Position numbers and translations under genes: made by a program | Shown here: positions 22,368-57,568 of the stretch, one piece after another | Layout of the letters: every line of letters starts with the position of its first letter | Numbering within the stretch: position 1 is the first letter of the stretch | Assembly (NCBI RefSeq): GCF_000378965.1 | Contig: NZ_KB900536.1 | Location: 941,583-1,005,582, forward strand | DNA length: 64,000 bases | Reading direction: 5' to 3' | DNA from: Thioalkalivibrio thiocyanodenitrificans ARhD 1 | GTDB taxonomy: Bacteria; Pseudomonadota; Gammaproteobacteria; Ectothiorhodospirales; Ectothiorhodospiraceae | Notes under the pieces: model-generated | The model's input: the letters and a program-made list of their open reading frames with translations, nothing else | Databases searched by the model: none | What the model was told of the DNA's origin: nothing

Positions 22368-22607
22368 ACATGATCCCCCGCAAGGTCTGGCCCGGCGCGC
22401 CTGAAGACATCGTTCACGATTTCACCCTTCCCGCTGTTCTCGCGGGTTCCACAACGCGTTGCGCATCGCCCGGCCTGCCCGGGCGTTCATGATACGCACC
22501 ATCCCGGGAGCATTGCCAGGGTACGGATCCGACACAACCCATCTTGGACCGGGACGTGATTCCCCTGGATGCAACCAGCACGAAGCGCCTGCAAGCGGAT
22601 CAGCCAC

Positions 22608-22774
22608 ATGTAGGAGCCCGGTCCTCCGGGCGATCAGGGTTTAGCCTGGGCAGGATCGCCCAAGGGACTGGGCTCCTACACGGCGGGGATCAAAGCACGC
22701 GTGTAGGAGCCCGGTCCTCCGGGCGATCAACCCCCACCGCACAGATCGCCCGCGGGAGCGGGCTCCTACGAGGG
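22608..22774. repeat. REP palindrome block upstream of the subtilase promoter
   Basis: Four units: GTAGGAGCCCGGTCCTCCGG at about 22611 and 22702, and the reverse GGGCTCCTAC at about 22670 and 22760. Together with unassigned sequence from 22370 to 22600 it fills the gap before the promoter at 22811. Confidence 0.9.
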
Positions 22775-22810
22775 GTGATCTGGGGGTGCACGGGATGAAC
22801 CTCGCCCCGC

Positions 22811-22838
22811 TTGACCCGCTTTGATCCGGCGGCATAAT
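22811..22838 (+). promoter_or_regulatory. Sigma70-like promoter of the riboswitch-subtilase transcript
   Basis: TTGACC at 22811-22816, a 16-base spacer and CATAAT at 22833-22838. Transcription would start near 22845, just before the riboswitch aptamer. Confidence 0.6.
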
Positions 22839-22849
22839 GTGAATTCAAA

Positions 22850-22945
22850 AGGTTTCAAGGGCAAACTGCGGGTGACCGTAGGGCGCAAAGTCGTGGATCC
22901 CGCGTGAACAGATCGCGGGACAGCCTGGCTACAACCGCCCTCCCG
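22850..22945 (+). promoter_or_regulatory. Cyclic-di-GMP-I (GEMM) riboswitch aptamer
   Basis: The ordered conserved segments of the GEMM-I aptamer are present: AGGGCAAACTGCGGGTGACC (GGCAAAC joining P1 to P1b, with a GTGA tetraloop), then GGGCGCAAAGTC (the GCAAAG segment), a GC-rich P2 hairpin (GATCCCGCG...GATCGCGGG), and ACAGCCTGGCTACAACC, the 3' AGCC-GGCTAC segment. These fold as two side-by-side hairpins that bind one c-di-GMP. It lies between a sigma70-like promoter and the subtilase gene 90 bases downstream. The 22945-23033 stretch contains ACCGGCCGGAG and CCGGTCGG, which could form the expression platform. Covariance-model confirmation was not possible here. Confidence 0.8.
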
Positions 22946-23033
22946 AATTCCTCCTGGCCACGACAGGAAAACCGGCCGGAGAGTTTGCTCCAACACGATA
23001 TTCCTCCCGGTCGGATGGCCCGGATCTCATGAT

Positions 23034-25040
23034 ATGAAACGCACAAACGGCGTCATATTTCGCCTTGCCGCTGTAATCCTCATCGCGGCGCTGGGGTTGC
23101 TCGGCTATACGCTGCCGACCGCCGGCGAGAATCCCCACCTGCCCGCGCTGAGCTCGCATCCGGCATCCGTCGAAACTCCAGAGGAACATCACGCCGCATT
23201 GGTCAACCGGGCGATTGCCGACGGCAACGTGCCCATCCTGGTTCAGCTCGACGTTCATCTGGTACTCGAAGAAAAGCTGCCGGACCATGCCGCCCTCACC
23301 GCGCAGCGCGAACGGCTGCGCAGCATTCAGGAACAGGTCCTGCAACGTCTGTCGGCCGTGCCGGCGCCCGAAGCGGCCCGCGGAATCAAGCGATTCCACC
23401 TCTTTCCCGGCTTTGCCATGCAGGCCAGTGCAGTCGAGATCCAGAAACTGCTCGAAGACCCCAAGGTTGTCCGTATCTTCGAGGACACCCCCGTACCGCC
23501 CCTGCTGGACGACAGTGTGCCGCTGATCGGCGCGGATGGCTCCGGAACCTTCTCCGGATTCACGGGAGACGGGCATGTCATCGCGATCCTCGATACGGGT
23601 GTCGACAAGCACCATACGTTTCTGAGCGGAAAGGTGATCTCGGAGGCCTGTTATTCAAGCACCGTGGAGGCTGATGGCTCCACGTCACTTTGTCCGGACG
23701 GTGTCGCCGAATCCACGGCACCCGACTCCGGCCTGAACTGCCCGGGGAGTATCTCCGGCTGCGATCATGGCACCCACGTGGCCGGCATCGCGGCAGGGAA
23801 AGGCGACACCTTCTCCGGCGTTGCCCGGGAGGCCGAACTCATCGCGATCCAGGTGTTCAGTGAGGTCTCCGGCACCATATGCACGAACCACGGATTGTCG
23901 TCACCATGCATTCTCAGTTACAACTCAGACCTGCTCAAAGCACTGGAAAGGGTGTTCGATCTGCGCAACACCTACGACCTCGCCTCCGTCAACATGAGCC
24001 TCGGCGGGGGCGCCTATCCCAGCGCATGTGACGACAATCCGCTCAAGACACCCATAGACAACCTTCGCGCCGCGGACATCGCAACGGTGGTTGCCAGCGG
24101 CAACAACGGCTTCACCGACGCCATCAGCAGCCCGGCCTGCATCTCCACTGCCGTGAGCGTCGGCAGCACGACCAAGTCGGACATCGTATCGGCCTTCAGC
24201 AACAGCGCGGATCTCCTGGATCTGCTGGCACCGGGCGATTCAATCTTCTCTTCGATACTCGACAACAGCTTCGGCTACAAGTCCGGAACCTCCATGGCCG
24301 CGCCTCATGTGGCGGGTGCCTGGGCCGTGCTCCGGCAGGCACAAAGCGATGCGACGGTGGATACCATTCTGGACGCATTCAAGAGCACCGGCGTCCTGAT
24401 CACCGACACCCGCACCGGCGCGGGTAACCGGATCAAACCGCGTATTCGCGTGGACGCCGCGATCGAGGCCGTCACGACCGGCACGGGTCCCGCGCCCGAA
24501 GAACCGCCCCCGCCCCAGCAGATCAAGACCGGCGAAACCATCGACGGGATCACCGGTGATCAGGGCAGCGAGCGGTATTTCTTCATCGAAGTGCCTGCCG
24601 GCGCATCCGACCTGGTCATCAGCACCTTCGAAGGCACCGGGGACGTGGACCTGTACGTACGCTTCGGCACGCCACCCACCCAGTCGGAGTACGACTGCCG
24701 CCCTTACCTGCCGGGCAATGAGGAAACCTGCGAGTTCTCAACGGCTCCTGACGGCATCTGGTACATCATGCTGCATGGCTGGGACGCCTATGCCGACGTA
24801 AGCCTGACGGCCAGCTATGCATGTGAGCCCGGGCAGATCCTTCAGATTTCCGGAACCGTGATCGATGCCTATTCACTCACCGCATGCCGGACCATCCGCA
24901 CGAGCGGGGATGGCTTTACAGTGAATTCCGATGCCTATGCACAGTTCAGGGCAGGCGAGCGCATTACCCTGTCTCCCGGCTTTCGGGTTCTCCCGGGAGG
25001 AAGCTTCAACGCACGCGTGGATACCGCTCTCGCGCCCTGA
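23034..25040 (+). CDS. Secreted S8 subtilisin-like serine protease with PPC domain
   Basis: 668 residues. Signal peptide (about 1-30) FRLAAVILIAALGLLGYTL, a propeptide-like region (about 50-165), and the S8 catalytic domain with Asp in VIAILDTGVD (~186), His in CDHGTHVAGIAAG (~247) and Ser in GTSMAAPHVAGAW (~420). Residues about 500-600 form a PPC domain (TGETIDGITGDQGSERYFFIEVP region; GDVDLYVRFGTPP). The tail repeats a beta-rich ACRTIRTSGDGF...AGERITLSPGFRV...GGSF motif seen in secreted gamma-proteobacterial proteins. Preceded by a c-di-GMP riboswitch, so expression probably follows the motile-to-sessile switch; the protease is likely exported for matrix or adhesin processing. Confidence 0.92.
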   Translation: MKRTNGVIFRLAAVILIAALGLLGYTLPTAGENPHLPALSSHPASVETPEEHHAALVNRAIADGNVPILVQLDVHLVLEEKLPDHAALTAQRERLRSIQEQVLQRLSAVPAPEAARGIKRFHLFPGFAMQASAVEIQKLLEDPKVVRIFEDTPVPPLLDDSVPLIGADGSGTFSGFTGDGHVIAILDTGVDKHHTFLSGKVISEACYSSTVEADGSTSLCPDGVAESTAPDSGLNCPGSISGCDHGTHVAGIAAGKGDTFSGVAREAELIAIQVFSEVSGTICTNHGLSSPCILSYNSDLLKALERVFDLRNTYDLASVNMSLGGGAYPSACDDNPLKTPIDNLRAADIATVVASGNNGFTDAISSPACISTAVSVGSTTKSDIVSAFSNSADLLDLLAPGDSIFSSILDNSFGYKSGTSMAAPHVAGAWAVLRQAQSDATVDTILDAFKSTGVLITDTRTGAGNRIKPRIRVDAAIEAVTTGTGPAPEEPPPPQQIKTGETIDGITGDQGSERYFFIEVPAGASDLVISTFEGTGDVDLYVRFGTPPTQSEYDCRPYLPGNEETCEFSTAPDGIWYIMLHGWDAYADVSLTASYACEPGQILQISGTVIDAYSLTACRTIRTSGDGFTVNSDAYAQFRAGERITLSPGFRVLPGGSFNARVDTALAP

Positions 25041-25106
25041 ACAAGGTGTCGGGCCCCCTTGCACCTCCATTCTCGAAAGATCCCGTATCGACATCAGGAG
25101 ATCGAC

Positions 25107-25994
25107 ATGTTTCAACCATCCATATCCGGTTCAGTACCCGTCCGCCAAGGGTTGATGGTCTCGGTCCTAGCCCTTGTCGCCATTTTGTACAGCCCCCTTC
25201 CGCAACAGGCGGTACACCAGGCAGGCGCCGGCATCCTGACGCTCGTCGCATCCTCCGCACATGCCAGTGGTGAGATGTATGTCGAACCTGAGGGTGTCGG
25301 AATCGGTACGGCGAATCCCCAGCGTCAGCTTCATTTGGTCGGAAACAATGCGGTTTTCCGTATGGACCGGTCTGCCAACACGGCGGCATTCCTGATGGTG
25401 CGTACCGACGCAGGTGGCACTCCCCTAAAAACCTTCGTGGTCGGCACCAACGCCTCCGGTTCGGACAACGGCGAGTTCATCATCACCGACCTGGGTACCG
25501 CACTCGGGGGCTCCGGAGCCCGACGCCTTACGATTACCAACGATGGCGAGGCACATTTCACCGGCACCGTGCGCGCTCCCGCGTTCGTGCAGACCAGTTC
25601 GGCACGGCTCAAGGACAACGTTGAAACCCTGCGCCACGCGCGCCTCGCCATACAGCAGCTACGCGGGGTTCGATTCTCCTGGAAGGACTCGGGTGAAGCG
25701 TCGTTGGGAGTGATTGCCGAGGAAGTCCAGGCCGTGTATCCGGAACTAGTGGACACCGAGGACGGCATGGCGGCGGCGGTGAACTACTCCGCCCTGGTGG
25801 CGGTGCTGGTGGAAGCGGTCAAGGAACAGCAGACCGTCATGGACGATCAGCAGAAGGAGATTGCCGCCCAACAGGCCCGTATGAAGCTGCTGGAGAACCG
25901 ACTGGCAGAAATCGCGCTATTGAAGGCCCGCTTGGCGGATGTCGAGGACCAGCTCACCCGCGGGCACCTCCAAAGCGCAACACTTTTGGAGTGA
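25107..25994 (+). CDS. Exported protein with S74 intramolecular chaperone domain
   Basis: 295 residues from ATG 25107, six bases after AGGAG. N-terminal hydrophobic segment (GLMVSVLALVAILYSPL), a beta-rich region with VGIGTANPQRQLHLVGNNAVFRMDR typical of fibre-like proteins, then SARLKDNVETLRHA...GVIAEEVQAVYPELV...AVNYSALVAVLVEAVKEQQ, the S74 (endosialidase) chaperone, and a C-terminal coiled coil of about 50 residues. S74 domains help trimeric fibres fold and often cleave themselves off. The gene follows the subtilase by 66 bases and is probably co-transcribed under the same riboswitch. A cell-surface or phage-derived fibre is likely. Confidence 0.85.
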   Translation: MFQPSISGSVPVRQGLMVSVLALVAILYSPLPQQAVHQAGAGILTLVASSAHASGEMYVEPEGVGIGTANPQRQLHLVGNNAVFRMDRSANTAAFLMVRTDAGGTPLKTFVVGTNASGSDNGEFIITDLGTALGGSGARRLTITNDGEAHFTGTVRAPAFVQTSSARLKDNVETLRHARLAIQQLRGVRFSWKDSGEASLGVIAEEVQAVYPELVDTEDGMAAAVNYSALVAVLVEAVKEQQTVMDDQQKEIAAQQARMKLLENRLAEIALLKARLADVEDQLTRGHLQSATLLE

Positions 25995-26067
25995 TGCATC
26001 GCGATCCACGGATGGGGTTGCCACCATGGGGCGGGGCGTCTGAGCTTCCCCCAATAAAACGGACGGT

Positions 26068-26931
26068 TTAATTGCTCGCGTATCGTGCTTCGTATTCTAC
26101 CGGCGCCAGGTAGCGTAACGAAGCATGCCGTCGTTGCCGGTTGTAGAACACCTCGATGTACTCAAAGAGGCTTTGCTTGGCTTCTGCCCGGGTCTTGTAG
26201 TCCTCGTGGTGCACCAGTTCGTTCTTCAGGGAACCGAAGAAGCTTTCGGCCACCGCGTTGTCGAGGCACTCGCCCTTGCGGCTCATGCTGCAGCGCAGGC
26301 CGTTCTCGCGTAACTGCTGCCGGTACGTCGTCGAGGCATAGGTGCTGCCCTGATCGGAGTGGACGATGAGGTTGTCGACCTTTTTTCGACGCCACAGCGC
26401 CATAGTCAGGGCCTGCTGCACCAGTTCGGTATCGTTGCGGTTGCCCATGGCCCAGCCGATCACCTGACGGGAGAAGAGGTCCAGGAGCACGGCGAGGTAG
26501 AGCCAGCCCTCGCGGGTGGGGATGAAGGTGGTATCAGAAACCCAGGCAGTGTCCGGCTGGTCGACGGTAAATCGTCGCTGTAGCAGATCGGGTGCGGGCT
26601 GCAGGGTGTTCTTCGAATCCGTGGTGATGACGAACTTGCGGGCCATCCGGGACTTGATGTCCGCCGCCTTCATCAGGCGAGCCACCCGGTTAACACCACA
26701 GGCCGCGCCTTCGGCGACCAGGTCTTTGTGGATCTTCGGCGAGCCGTAGTTTTGCCGGGAACGTTGATGATAGTAGGCGATCTTCGCGGTGAGTCGTTTG
26801 CTTTCCTGGGTCCGCGGGCTCTCGGGCCGATCCAGCCAGTCGTGGTACCCGCTACGGGAGACCCCCAGTACCGCGCACAGCCGTGAGAAGGTGTGTTGAT
26901 GACGGTGTTCCCGGATGAAGGCGTACTTCAC
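26068..26931 (-). CDS. IS3 transposase OrfB (DDE integrase domain)
   Basis: 287 residues from a GTG that overlaps the orfA stop (GTGA). The DDE triad is visible: DTAWVSDTTFIP, LIVHSDQGSTYAS, and ECLDNAVAESFFGSLKNE. N-terminal HTH_21-like segment includes SRSGYHDWLDRP. The in-frame sequence continues open upstream to the slippery site near 26970, so a full OrfAB transposase can be made by -1 frameshifting. Confidence 0.95.
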   Translation of the reverse strand: MKYAFIREHRHQHTFSRLCAVLGVSRSGYHDWLDRPESPRTQESKRLTAKIAYYHQRSRQNYGSPKIHKDLVAEGAACGVNRVARLMKAADIKSRMARKFVITTDSKNTLQPAPDLLQRRFTVDQPDTAWVSDTTFIPTREGWLYLAVLLDLFSRQVIGWAMGNRNDTELVQQALTMALWRRKKVDNLIVHSDQGSTYASTTYRQQLRENGLRCSMSRKGECLDNAVAESFFGSLKNELVHHEDYKTRAEAKQSLFEYIEVFYNRQRRHASLRYLAPVEYEARYASN

Positions 26932-27236
26932 TTGGACTCCCGAGCAAAGTACGCCGCGGCTTTTTTTAGGATTTCATTCTCCTCCTTGAGCCGCTTGTTC
27001 TCCTGGCGAAGCGTGGCCATCTCGCTCTGGCCTTCTTTCCTGGGCCGGCCCCGTTTGCTTGAAGCCACCTTGCCTTTCTGACTCATCTGTTCCTTCCATT
27101 TGTAGAGCTGGTTGCGTCGGATGCCGAGCTGCCGGGCTACTTCACTGGCCGGCCTGTCGGATTCCTCCAGCAAGCGCAGGGCTTCGAGCTTAAAGGCTTC
27201 GGGATAGGTTTTATAGGGCTTGCGTTTGACGGTCAT
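26928..27236 (-). CDS. IS3 transposase OrfA (helix-turn-helix)
   Basis: 102 residues, IS3 OrfA with EAFKLEALRLLEESDRPASE and RQLGIRRNQLYKWKEQM helix-turn-helix followed by the leucine-zipper ENKRLKEENEILKKAAAYF. CTAAAAAAAGCC near 26968 is the slippery heptamer for fusion to OrfB. Binds the element ends. Confidence 0.95.
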   Translation of the reverse strand: MTVKRKPYKTYPEAFKLEALRLLEESDRPASEVARQLGIRRNQLYKWKEQMSQKGKVASSKRGRPRKEGQSEMATLRQENKRLKEENEILKKAAAYFARESK

Positions 27237-55324: not shown

Positions 55325-55879
55325 GAATCGCGGACCGGCGCGGCTCACAACCAGGCGGCATCCCAATGAGGATAATCTCGTCGCAGTAGGGACGCCGGTT
55401 ACCCGGCGCCCCCTGCACAGATCCCGGCGTGCGGTTTTCCCGCACCGGGCTCTTCAATCATGCTCACATTCGTAGAAGCAGCAATGCTGCTCATAGATAG
55501 TCCCTGCAAGAAGGTTGGCTCGTCGTACTCCGGCCCTACATTGTCCGGCGCGAGTTGCCTTTGCAAGCTACACATGACTGTCACTCCCTTCCCCATGTGA
55601 TCGGCCCTACCGTCTCCGAGTACTATGGAGTGATCCGACTCCCCATCGGCCTTCAAGCCAGCCTCCCGTTTGTAGCGGTCCGCTGTACTTTACCCTTCCC
55701 TTGGAGCCCATGGGGCCTCCCGCGTTCATGACGCATCTCTTGTTACATGCCGCAGCTTGAGAACTCCGCCGGCTCTCTACAGGCTCACCAATGCGCCTGC
55801 TTCGTATGGGCTTCACGCGCGTTACAACGCTGGCCAACCGTGAACCGCCCCGGGAATTGCGGAGGCTGGTTGGTTTAAG

Positions 55880-56731
55880 TCAAGCCGCCATTACGGCCTG
55901 ACTGGCGAGTTGCCGATAGTAGTTTGCCTCAGCTTCCACCGGCGGAATATACCCCAAGGGCTCCATCAACCTCTGATGATTGAACCAGGACACCCATTCC
56001 AGCGTCGCCAGCTCCACCGACTCCCTGGACCTCCAGGGGCCGCGGCGATGGATCAGTTCCGCCTTGTACAGGCCGTTGATGGTCTCGGCCAAGGCATTGT
56101 CGTAGCTGTCGCCACGGCTGCCGACCGACGGCTCGATACCGGCTTCGGAAAGTCGCTCCGTGTAGCGAATGCTGACGTATTGCGACCCGCGGTCGGAGTG
56201 ATGGATCAGGGCATCGTTATGCTCGGGCTGCCGAGCGTAGAGCGCCTGCTCCAGGGCATCGAGCACGAAGTCCGTGGTCATGGTGCAGCTGACGCGCCAT
56301 CCCACGATGCGCCGTGCGAAGACGTCGACAACGAAGGCCACGTACAGCCATCCCTGCCAGGTCGAAACGTAGGTGAAGTCCGACACCCAGAGCTGGTTGG
56401 GGCGCTCGGCCTGGAACTGCCGATTAACCCGATCCAACGGACATGGCGCCGATCGGTCCGCCACGGTGGTGCGAACCGTCTTGCCACGGCGTGCCCCCTG
56501 CAAGCCCAGGCGGCGCATGAGCCGCTCCACGCTACAGCGCGCCACGGAAACACCTTCGCGGTTGAGTTGCTTCCAGACCTTGTCGGCGCCGTAGACCTGG
56601 AGGTTGGCCTCCCAGACACGCTCAATGTGTGGAACCAGCCGCTCATCGCGCTTGGCCCGGGCACTGCGCAGATCCGGATTGCGCCGCCGGGCCGCATGGC
56701 GCCGGTAGGCCGATGGGGCAACCTGCAACAC
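55880..56731 (-). CDS. IS3 transposase OrfB (IS51-like)
   Basis: 283 residues from the first ATG-like start, but the open frame extends upstream through VEPICKVLQVAPSAYRRH to the slippery site, so the functional product is an OrfAB fusion. DDE motifs: LWVSDFTYVSTW, ALIHHSDRGSQYVS and DSYDNALAETINGLYKAE. Intact. Confidence 0.93.
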   Translation of the reverse strand: MLQVAPSAYRRHAARRRNPDLRSARAKRDERLVPHIERVWEANLQVYGADKVWKQLNREGVSVARCSVERLMRRLGLQGARRGKTVRTTVADRSAPCPLDRVNRQFQAERPNQLWVSDFTYVSTWQGWLYVAFVVDVFARRIVGWRVSCTMTTDFVLDALEQALYARQPEHNDALIHHSDRGSQYVSIRYTERLSEAGIEPSVGSRGDSYDNALAETINGLYKAELIHRRGPWRSRESVELATLEWVSWFNHQRLMEPLGYIPPVEAEANYYRQLASQAVMAA

Positions 56732-56784
56732 TTTGCAGATCGGCTCGACCCCATAGGCGTCCCGGTGCTGATCGATGTAGGCGT

Positions 56785-57108
56785 TTACGACTTCAGTTTG
56801 CGGTCGAGCTCCGCCTGCGCGAAAAAAGCGCTGGCGGTACGCAGGATCTCATTGGCGCGCCGTAACTCCTTGTTCTCGCGCTCCAGGTCCTTGATGCGCT
56901 GCGTCTCGGCCGTGGTCATGCCTGGCCGCGCACCCGCATCAATCTCCGCTCGCCTGACCCACTCCAGCAGCGTCTGTGGCACGCAGCCGATCTTTGGGGC
57001 TATCGACTCCACAACCGCCCACAGCGACGGGTACTCCCCACGGTGCTCCTGGACCATCCGCACCGCCCGCTCACGGACCTCAGGTGAAAACTTGTTTGAC
57101 TTGTTCAT
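56785..57108 (-). CDS. IS3 transposase OrfA
   Basis: 107 residues: helix-turn-helix [20 protein letters not shown] and [17 protein letters not shown], then leucine-zipper [20 protein letters not shown]. Ends after the TTTTTTC run; a -1 slip there continues into OrfB. Confidence 0.93.
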
Positions 57109-57568
57109 GGCTCCATTCTCTCAAGAGTTGGAGCCTCCGCGATACCCGGGGCGGTTCACCGGGACTGTTCATTTCGAAGCGATTCCATCTCTAAGGAGCT
57201 ACGTCTCCAAACGGCCTGCAACATACCCTGTGTACGCTTCACCTCTCTTGTTCACGCATGCTCCAGTCTTCGTGACCAAGGCACCGTTCCGCCAGAGGCG
57301 CAACACTCGGTAATGGTGGGTGGTTCACCCTTACCATGTCGGGACTCTCACCCGACCAGATGCGCCACGCTTTGCGCGGCGCGCCAACGCTTGCCACCAA
57401 CCCGGCGCGCAGGGGGTTGGCCACGATATATCGCGCCCAGGCCCGCACGTCGTCTTCCTTTCTCAATGCGTGATCATGAAAACCCTTCTGCCAGACCCGG
57501 CGCCCGACACGGCGGCTGCTCATGGCCTTGACGTCGCGAACCACCGCAGACAGGTCATGACCCGGCCG

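Follow-up and report, generated by a model that had tools for sequence, protein, structure and literature searches.

A putative c-di-GMP-I riboswitch in the leader of a subtilase gene from Thioalkalivibrio thiocyanodenitrificans

Described c-di-GMP-I systems and the subtilase locus

Vibrio cholerae has two c-di-GMP riboswitches, Vc1 and Vc2 (RF01051), that are among the closest described relatives of the element analyzed here, with which they share the aptamer class and the contact residues. Vc1 lies upstream of gbpA, which encodes a secreted colonization factor. The element is located in a 64,000-nucleotide stretch of the T. thiocyanodenitrificans ARhD 1 genome (contig NZ_KB900536.1), hereafter the window, and it differs from Vc1 and Vc2 in its GUGA loop, its receptor-less P3, the 97-nt leader that follows the aptamer, and its subtilase target.

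The Clostridioides difficile gene zmpI itself has a class I riboswitch. Its product, ZmpI/PPEP-1, is an exported protease that cleaves adhesins and belongs to a c-di-GMP-controlled set of surface genes (PMC6366702, excerpt). ZmpI/PPEP-1 is a zinc metalloprotease of a Gram-positive bacterium, whereas the window encodes a serine subtilase of a gammaproteobacterium. In Bacillota, tandem c-di-GMP-I aptamers precede genes for transglutaminase-like, putative cysteine proteases (PMC12452182, excerpt). The c-di-GMP-I aptamer of the window likewise precedes a proteolysis-type gene, but the Bacillota system has tandem aptamers, another enzyme class, and another phylum. A search of the open literature, a weak one given that most subscription journals fall outside its scope, yielded no paper describing a subtilase preceded by a GEMM-I or c-di-GMP riboswitch, and the available parts of PMC6366702, PMC10599522, PMC13194489, PMC3754575, and PMC7793685 do not place a c-di-GMP riboswitch in such a position. 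The riboswitch type is well known, whereas there is little description of it being paired with a protease of this kind, a combination that seems to have originated on more than one occasion.

We propose, with a probability of roughly 0.8, that a c-di-GMP-I riboswitch in the 5′ leader of the subtilase mRNA makes the subtilase, and probably the S74 protein encoded next to it, depend on the intracellular c-di-GMP level. The aptamer would bind c-di-GMP, control would be exerted at the start of translation, and the level of the second messenger would set the production of the exported subtilase and probably of the S74 protein. If c-di-GMP gates exported subtilases through RNA in this way, the decision to settle or leave would be tied to the cleavage of proteins on the cell's own surface or in its surroundings; such a system would be similar in kind to PPEP-1 of C. 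difficile, with another protease class and in Gram-negative bacteria. The order promoter, aptamer, S8 gene, and S74 gene agrees with the original prediction, whose coordinates were right, the aptamer proper spanning 22850-22936 (Table 1).

Table 1. Features of the riboswitch-subtilase locus, in window coordinates.
Feature	Position	Strand	Basis
Sigma-70-like promoter (TTGACC 22811-22816, spacer 16, CATAAT 22833-22838)	22811-22838	+	Consensus scan, 10/12 matches
c-di-GMP-I (GEMM-I) aptamer	22850-22936	+	RF01051, 45.7 bits; model R1, 50.4 bits, partly circular
G equivalent to Vc2 G20 (c-di-GMP rather than cGAMP)	22860	+	Rfam alignment; column at least 90% conserved in 40 aptamers
P2 hairpin, GUGA tetraloop 22872-22875	22866-22881	+	Rfam structure
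C of interhelical C-G pair, partner G 22923	22884	+	Both columns invariant in 40/40 aligned aptamers
A equivalent to Vc2 A47	22887	+	Invariant in 40/40; unlike GGC variant consensus
P1-side stem and P3 arm, G-C rich, without GAAA-type receptor	22889-22930	+	Rfam alignment, folding, receptor pattern
C equivalent to Vc2 C92	22932	+	Invariant in 40/40 aligned aptamers
Leader, presumed expression platform	22937-23033	+	Folding
S8 subtilase, probably exported (I9 prodomain, S8, PPC, GCX_COOH)	23034-25040	+	Pfam, NCBIfam; PF00082, E 1.8e-33
S74 (chaperone of endosialidase) protein	25107-25994	+	PF13884, 4.2e-12

The predicted subtilase comprises 668 residues and starts 97 nt past the end of the aptamer. 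It carries the catalytic triad motifs AILDTG (184), GTHVAG (246), and GTSMAAP (418), as expected of the S8 family, and its sequence relatives in the PDB include subtilisins. The protein is probably exported, judging from a basic and then hydrophobic N terminus, as assessed by eye, and from its I9, PPC, and GCX_COOH domains. The S74 gene begins 66 nt after the subtilase stop codon, with no terminator-like site on the + strand between the two, and the genes likely share one transcript. An S8 protease gene and an S74-type gene on the same strand after the aptamer had both been predicted, and the domain matches (E of 1.8e-33 and 4.2e-12) bear this out.

Aptamer and ligand pocket

To look for the predicted GEMM-I aptamer, the window was scanned with the Rfam models. 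RF01051 (c-di-GMP-I, GEMM-I) matched on the + strand over its full length (model positions 1 to 87), in the place where the aptamer had been expected, with 45.7 bits (gathering score, 35) and E-values of 9.9e-6 in the window scan and 1.3e-7 in the genome scan. The refuting outcome named in the original prediction, a lack of any RF01051 match, thus did not occur. Our own model R1, built from 40 aptamers, gave 50.4 bits and an E-value of 4e-10 over 686 kb, a partly circular result since the window aptamer is 1 of the 40. These matches confirm the c-di-GMP-I aptamer, which belongs to a known riboswitch class and is most likely functional. In the 3.75-Mb genome (three contigs), no second c-di-GMP-I match was found with the Rfam model among the 150 of 181 first-look candidates scored, nor a second GEMM-I match with R1 among 150 of 1042. 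The same genome contains 35 GGDEF matches, and the one riboswitch found would represent a compact, testable c-di-GMP output.

The contact residues of Vc2 are G20, A47, and C92, and the distances of 24 and 27 nt that separate 22860 from 22884 and 22887 are the same as those from G12 to C36 and A39 in Vc1 (PMC4744006, excerpt). For a broader comparison, we assembled 111 above-cutoff rows from a class-level sample (leaving out the window's own row and four below the cutoff) and 16 family-level aptamers, i.e., 127 aptamers, of which 125 are distinct. In the class sample, which was taken to be Gammaproteobacteria, a strict-filter search found GEMM-I in 67 of 369 genomes, own genome included; the family sample gave 16 matches in 8 of 47 genomes, again with the own genome, and the order-level sample consists of the same 47. 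All 125 distinct aptamers fitted a pattern in which an A is obligatory at the A47 place. The C92 and partner-G assignments (22932 and 22923) are presumptive and follow the alignment column together with the Vc2 numbering. Binding of c-di-GMP is predicted because the pocket residues are intact, and we read the pocket as canonical and of the c-di-GMP rather than the cGAMP type.

The GUGA loop and the receptor-less P3 were then considered together. After 18 of the 127 aptamers were set aside (two duplicates and 16 with unparsed P2 loops), 109 were left, 16 of them without a GNRA loop as parsed. A CUAA..UAYG receptor was present in 31 of 65 aptamers with a GAAA loop versus 0 of 28 with another GNRA loop (Fisher P = 1.4e-6, with related sequences counted as independent); the receptor pattern is strict, so that 34 of the 65 GAAA aptamers do not match it. 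The window aptamer is one of the 28, and its GUGA loop and lack of a receptor in P3 fit the pattern of the 93 GNRA-loop aptamers.

Could a GEMM-I aptamer of this shape recognize another ligand, such as cGAMP (as in GEMM-Ib) or the one bound by the GGC variant? On a short stretch and at a permissive threshold, c-di-GMP-I-GGC (RF03167) matched the same place as the window aptamer with the best E-value of the clan, but its 41.2 bits fall below its own gathering score of 59, and the model consensus, as we read it, has a G at the A47 place where the window has an A. Membership in the GGC variant was rejected on both counts. Membership in the cGAMP class, which needs an A at position 20, was rejected as well, as the window has a G (22860), and an A20G change in that class switches selectivity to c-di-GMP (PMC6456294, excerpt). 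We therefore regard another ligand as very improbable and retain c-di-GMP as the predicted one.

Two further features of the aptamer set were recorded. RF03167 also outperformed RF01051 by E-value on 6 of 7 other aptamers (L260-L262, L182, L190, and L215) that had been chosen as receptor-less with A at the A47 place, which looks like an apparent fit to the P3 shape; automatic c-di-GMP-I subclass labels may thus mislead on receptor-less aptamers. In addition, 20 of the 125 distinct GEMM-I aptamers (L198, L207, L214-L219, and others) have CGGAA in place of the CGCAA-type core letters, mostly with GCC instead of GGC on the opposite side, a compensatory change adjoining the ligand site.

Leader and direction of control

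The consensus scan found the TTGACC/CATAAT promoter where it had been predicted. Promoter-like sites are as common in shuffled sequence (2 found versus 1.0 ± 1.0 expected), so that the one feature supporting this candidate is its position: with a start assumed 7 nt after the site, the RNA would begin about 5 nt before the aptamer. Shortly before this promoter, the window carries two REP-like pairs (22610-22770), and REP-like palindromic repeats with the cores GTAGGAGC and GCTCCTAC occur throughout the window with 23 and 22 exact cores.

No intrinsic terminator-like site was found on the + strand in 22400-26100, the sole such site there being on the - strand. Because the leader lacks a + strand terminator-like site, control is expected to act at the start of translation, or possibly through Rho. 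In the free fold, two GCCC sequences of the leader (22937-22940 and 23018-23021) can pair with the GGGC sequences of the aptamer (22881-22884 and 22859-22862), and the second GCCC is directly followed by a Shine-Dalgarno (SD)-like GGAU (23022-23025). The unconstrained leader fold breaks the two core G-C pairs of the aptamer, and locking the aptamer alone in its Rfam shape costs 3.0 kcal/mol in a folding model that includes neither the ligand nor tertiary contacts. An evolved competing structure in the leader was not supported, as the locking cost of 10.5 kcal/mol compares with 6.9 ± 2.6 for shuffled tails and was equaled or exceeded by 20 of 200, which is not significant.

As to the direction of control, we lean slightly toward a switch that c-di-GMP turns ON, because base pairing is possible, in the unliganded fold, between the 5′ side of the aptamer and the nucleotides immediately preceding the start codon. 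With the aptamer locked, the SD-like stretch became more accessible in 11 of 18 fold windows, as this reading predicts, and less accessible in the other 7, while the AUG was less accessible in many. These latter results would suit an OFF switch, with less protease at high c-di-GMP as for the GEMM Cd1 before C. difficile flagellar genes (PMC4744006, excerpt); given the 11 windows and the failure to find a + strand terminator, which speaks against a transcriptional mechanism of the Cd1 type, an OFF switch is quite possible without being the reading we would choose. Alternatively, a decayed GEMM-I aptamer could keep the right look after losing binding or regulation. Decay would account for the lowest score among the 16 family matches (45.7 versus 64.6 to 80.1 bits for the others), for the U-U and A-C mismatches that the Rfam alignment places in the stems, for the core pairs missing from the unconstrained fold, for the nonsignificant expression platform, and for the failure to find GEMM-I beside homologues of the protease (see below). 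However, none of the contact residues has been lost, nor has the interhelical pair, RNAfold restores the outer P3 stem by shifting the bulge and forming a G-U pair, and the P2 loop and P3 fit the tetraloop-receptor pattern. We consider decay unlikely, and a functional c-di-GMP riboswitch, with a slight lean toward ON, remains our preferred reading.

Around the start codons, some additional arrangements were noticed. A two-codon frame, ATGATATGA (ATG ATA TGA, 23029-23037), overlaps the start codon of the subtilase. In the same-genus loci L004, L005, L009-L013, L015, and L016, the start codon abuts the aptamer, with GTTACCGAA and then ATG in 6 of 9. Their aptamers contain an SD-like GGGG or GGAG, and the frame extends for about 25 to 75 codons before an apparent signal peptide, as judged by eye. 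The idea that start codons generally adjoin the aptamer was rejected, as 20 of 122 loci conform, which by a crude test is not above shifted positions (14 to 32 of 118).

S8 genes behind GEMM-I aptamers and their neighborhoods

We then asked how often S8 genes follow GEMM-I aptamers. The longest ORF starting within 500 nt was taken as the downstream gene of each of the 127 aptamers, a choice that may be wrong and is wrong for L005. Seven aptamers had no ORF and L172, which repeats the gene of L169, was dropped, leaving 119 ORFs in which at least the gene shared by L137 and L213 is still counted twice. Peptidase_S8 was found in 8 of the 119, window included, and the same eight emerged from a second search, in which an S8 profile derived from the homologues was used. 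The other domains comprised Big_9 (10), Cadherin_4 (9), Cadherin_5 (8), GGDEF (5), M23 (3), and papain-type C1 (2), in overlapping counts; two of the eight S8 proteins also bear Big_9 and cadherin-like domains. All eight S8 genes lie on the same strand as the aptamer and start 0 to 161 nt past it. Their products fall into four groups, namely, G042/G035/G014/G293 (48 to 65% identical), G140/G384 (50%), G212, and the window protein, which is 24 to 30% identical to the other seven.

The background frequency of S8 genes was 51 matches in the 47 family genomes (about 136 Mb) and 596 matches in 223 of the 369 class genomes, or 868 if all first-look candidates there were real. Against this background, the 4 S8 genes among 103 class ORFs have a Poisson probability of 7e-7 to 1.2e-5, assuming 0.9 genes per kb and 2.0 to 2.9 Mb per genome and counting related genomes as independent. 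The 4 among 16 family ORFs lie further out than the class figure, but three of the four belong to one group. S8 genes thus appear after GEMM-I well above their gene frequency, which suggests repeated recruitment, although part of the excess may reflect that GEMM-I targets are generally secreted proteins. The point of interest is this repeated union of the riboswitch with distantly related subtilases. We tentatively suggest, short of considering it probable, that GEMM-I in Gammaproteobacteria repeatedly captured distant S8 subtilases and that c-di-GMP-gated exoproteolysis is a recurrent and largely undescribed theme; the window would be one independent capture, with S74 beside glycan genes, perhaps serving to trim surface proteins at the change between sessile and free life.

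Homologues of the window protease itself were examined at 80 loci, the best of which, from a Thiocapsa MAG, is 59% identical. Model R1, run with default filters and E-values up to 1, found no GEMM-I in the 80 homologous loci, of which 77 include 250 or more bases upstream of the inferred start (L039, L065, and L078 do not), and co-inheritance of the riboswitch with this protease was rejected on this result. An all-Rfam scan of 7 of the 80 loci and two G014 stretches detected one tRNA and no riboswitch. Within the taxonomic family (47 genomes), the protease was matched in 21 genomes and the S74 protein in 2, own genome counted in both, and only G014 has close relatives of both (an S8-GCX_COOH protein at 42% and an S74 protein at 51%). 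Because this G014 stretch has no Rfam riboswitch, the S8 and S74 gene set exists without one; the one GEMM-I found in G014 is located outside this roughly 25-kb stretch and precedes another S8 gene.

The original prediction had also proposed that the riboswitch, next to a presumed O-antigen locus, links a surface-glycan lifestyle to proteolysis. In the window, a nucleotide-sugar SDR enzyme gene lies upstream of the riboswitch on the opposite strand, and downstream, beyond a transposase pair, are genes for an LPG_synthase_TM-type protein, an FkbM methyltransferase, and a glycosyltransferase. In G014, the S74 gene is followed by one whose product is similar to the window's LPG_synthase-type protein (26% over 239 residues, E of 1e-6), and an ORF at the edge of the 25-kb stretch appears by eye to be glycosyltransferase-like. 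The proposed link between glycans and proteolysis is suggestive only; a similar gene set lies near such an ORF in G014, but Rfam finds no riboswitch there.

The G014 stretch (G014:C1:2072000-2099500, L258-L259) also contains a run of protease genes, two reprolysin-type, S8, and M23, with the S74 protein at its end, and several proteins of the run carry PPC, GCX_COOH, or Lcl_C domains. As for the transposase pair of the window, its two ORFs (26068-27236, - strand), with rve and HTH_Tnp_1 domains, separate the S74 gene from the glycan genes. We take the pair to be of the IS3 type. Elsewhere in the window (55380-57348, - strand), an ALIL element (56714-56830) and ORFs resembling a transposase pair are bracketed by group II intron matches (57068-57348 and 55380-55454), as if an insertion sequence lay inside a group II intron.
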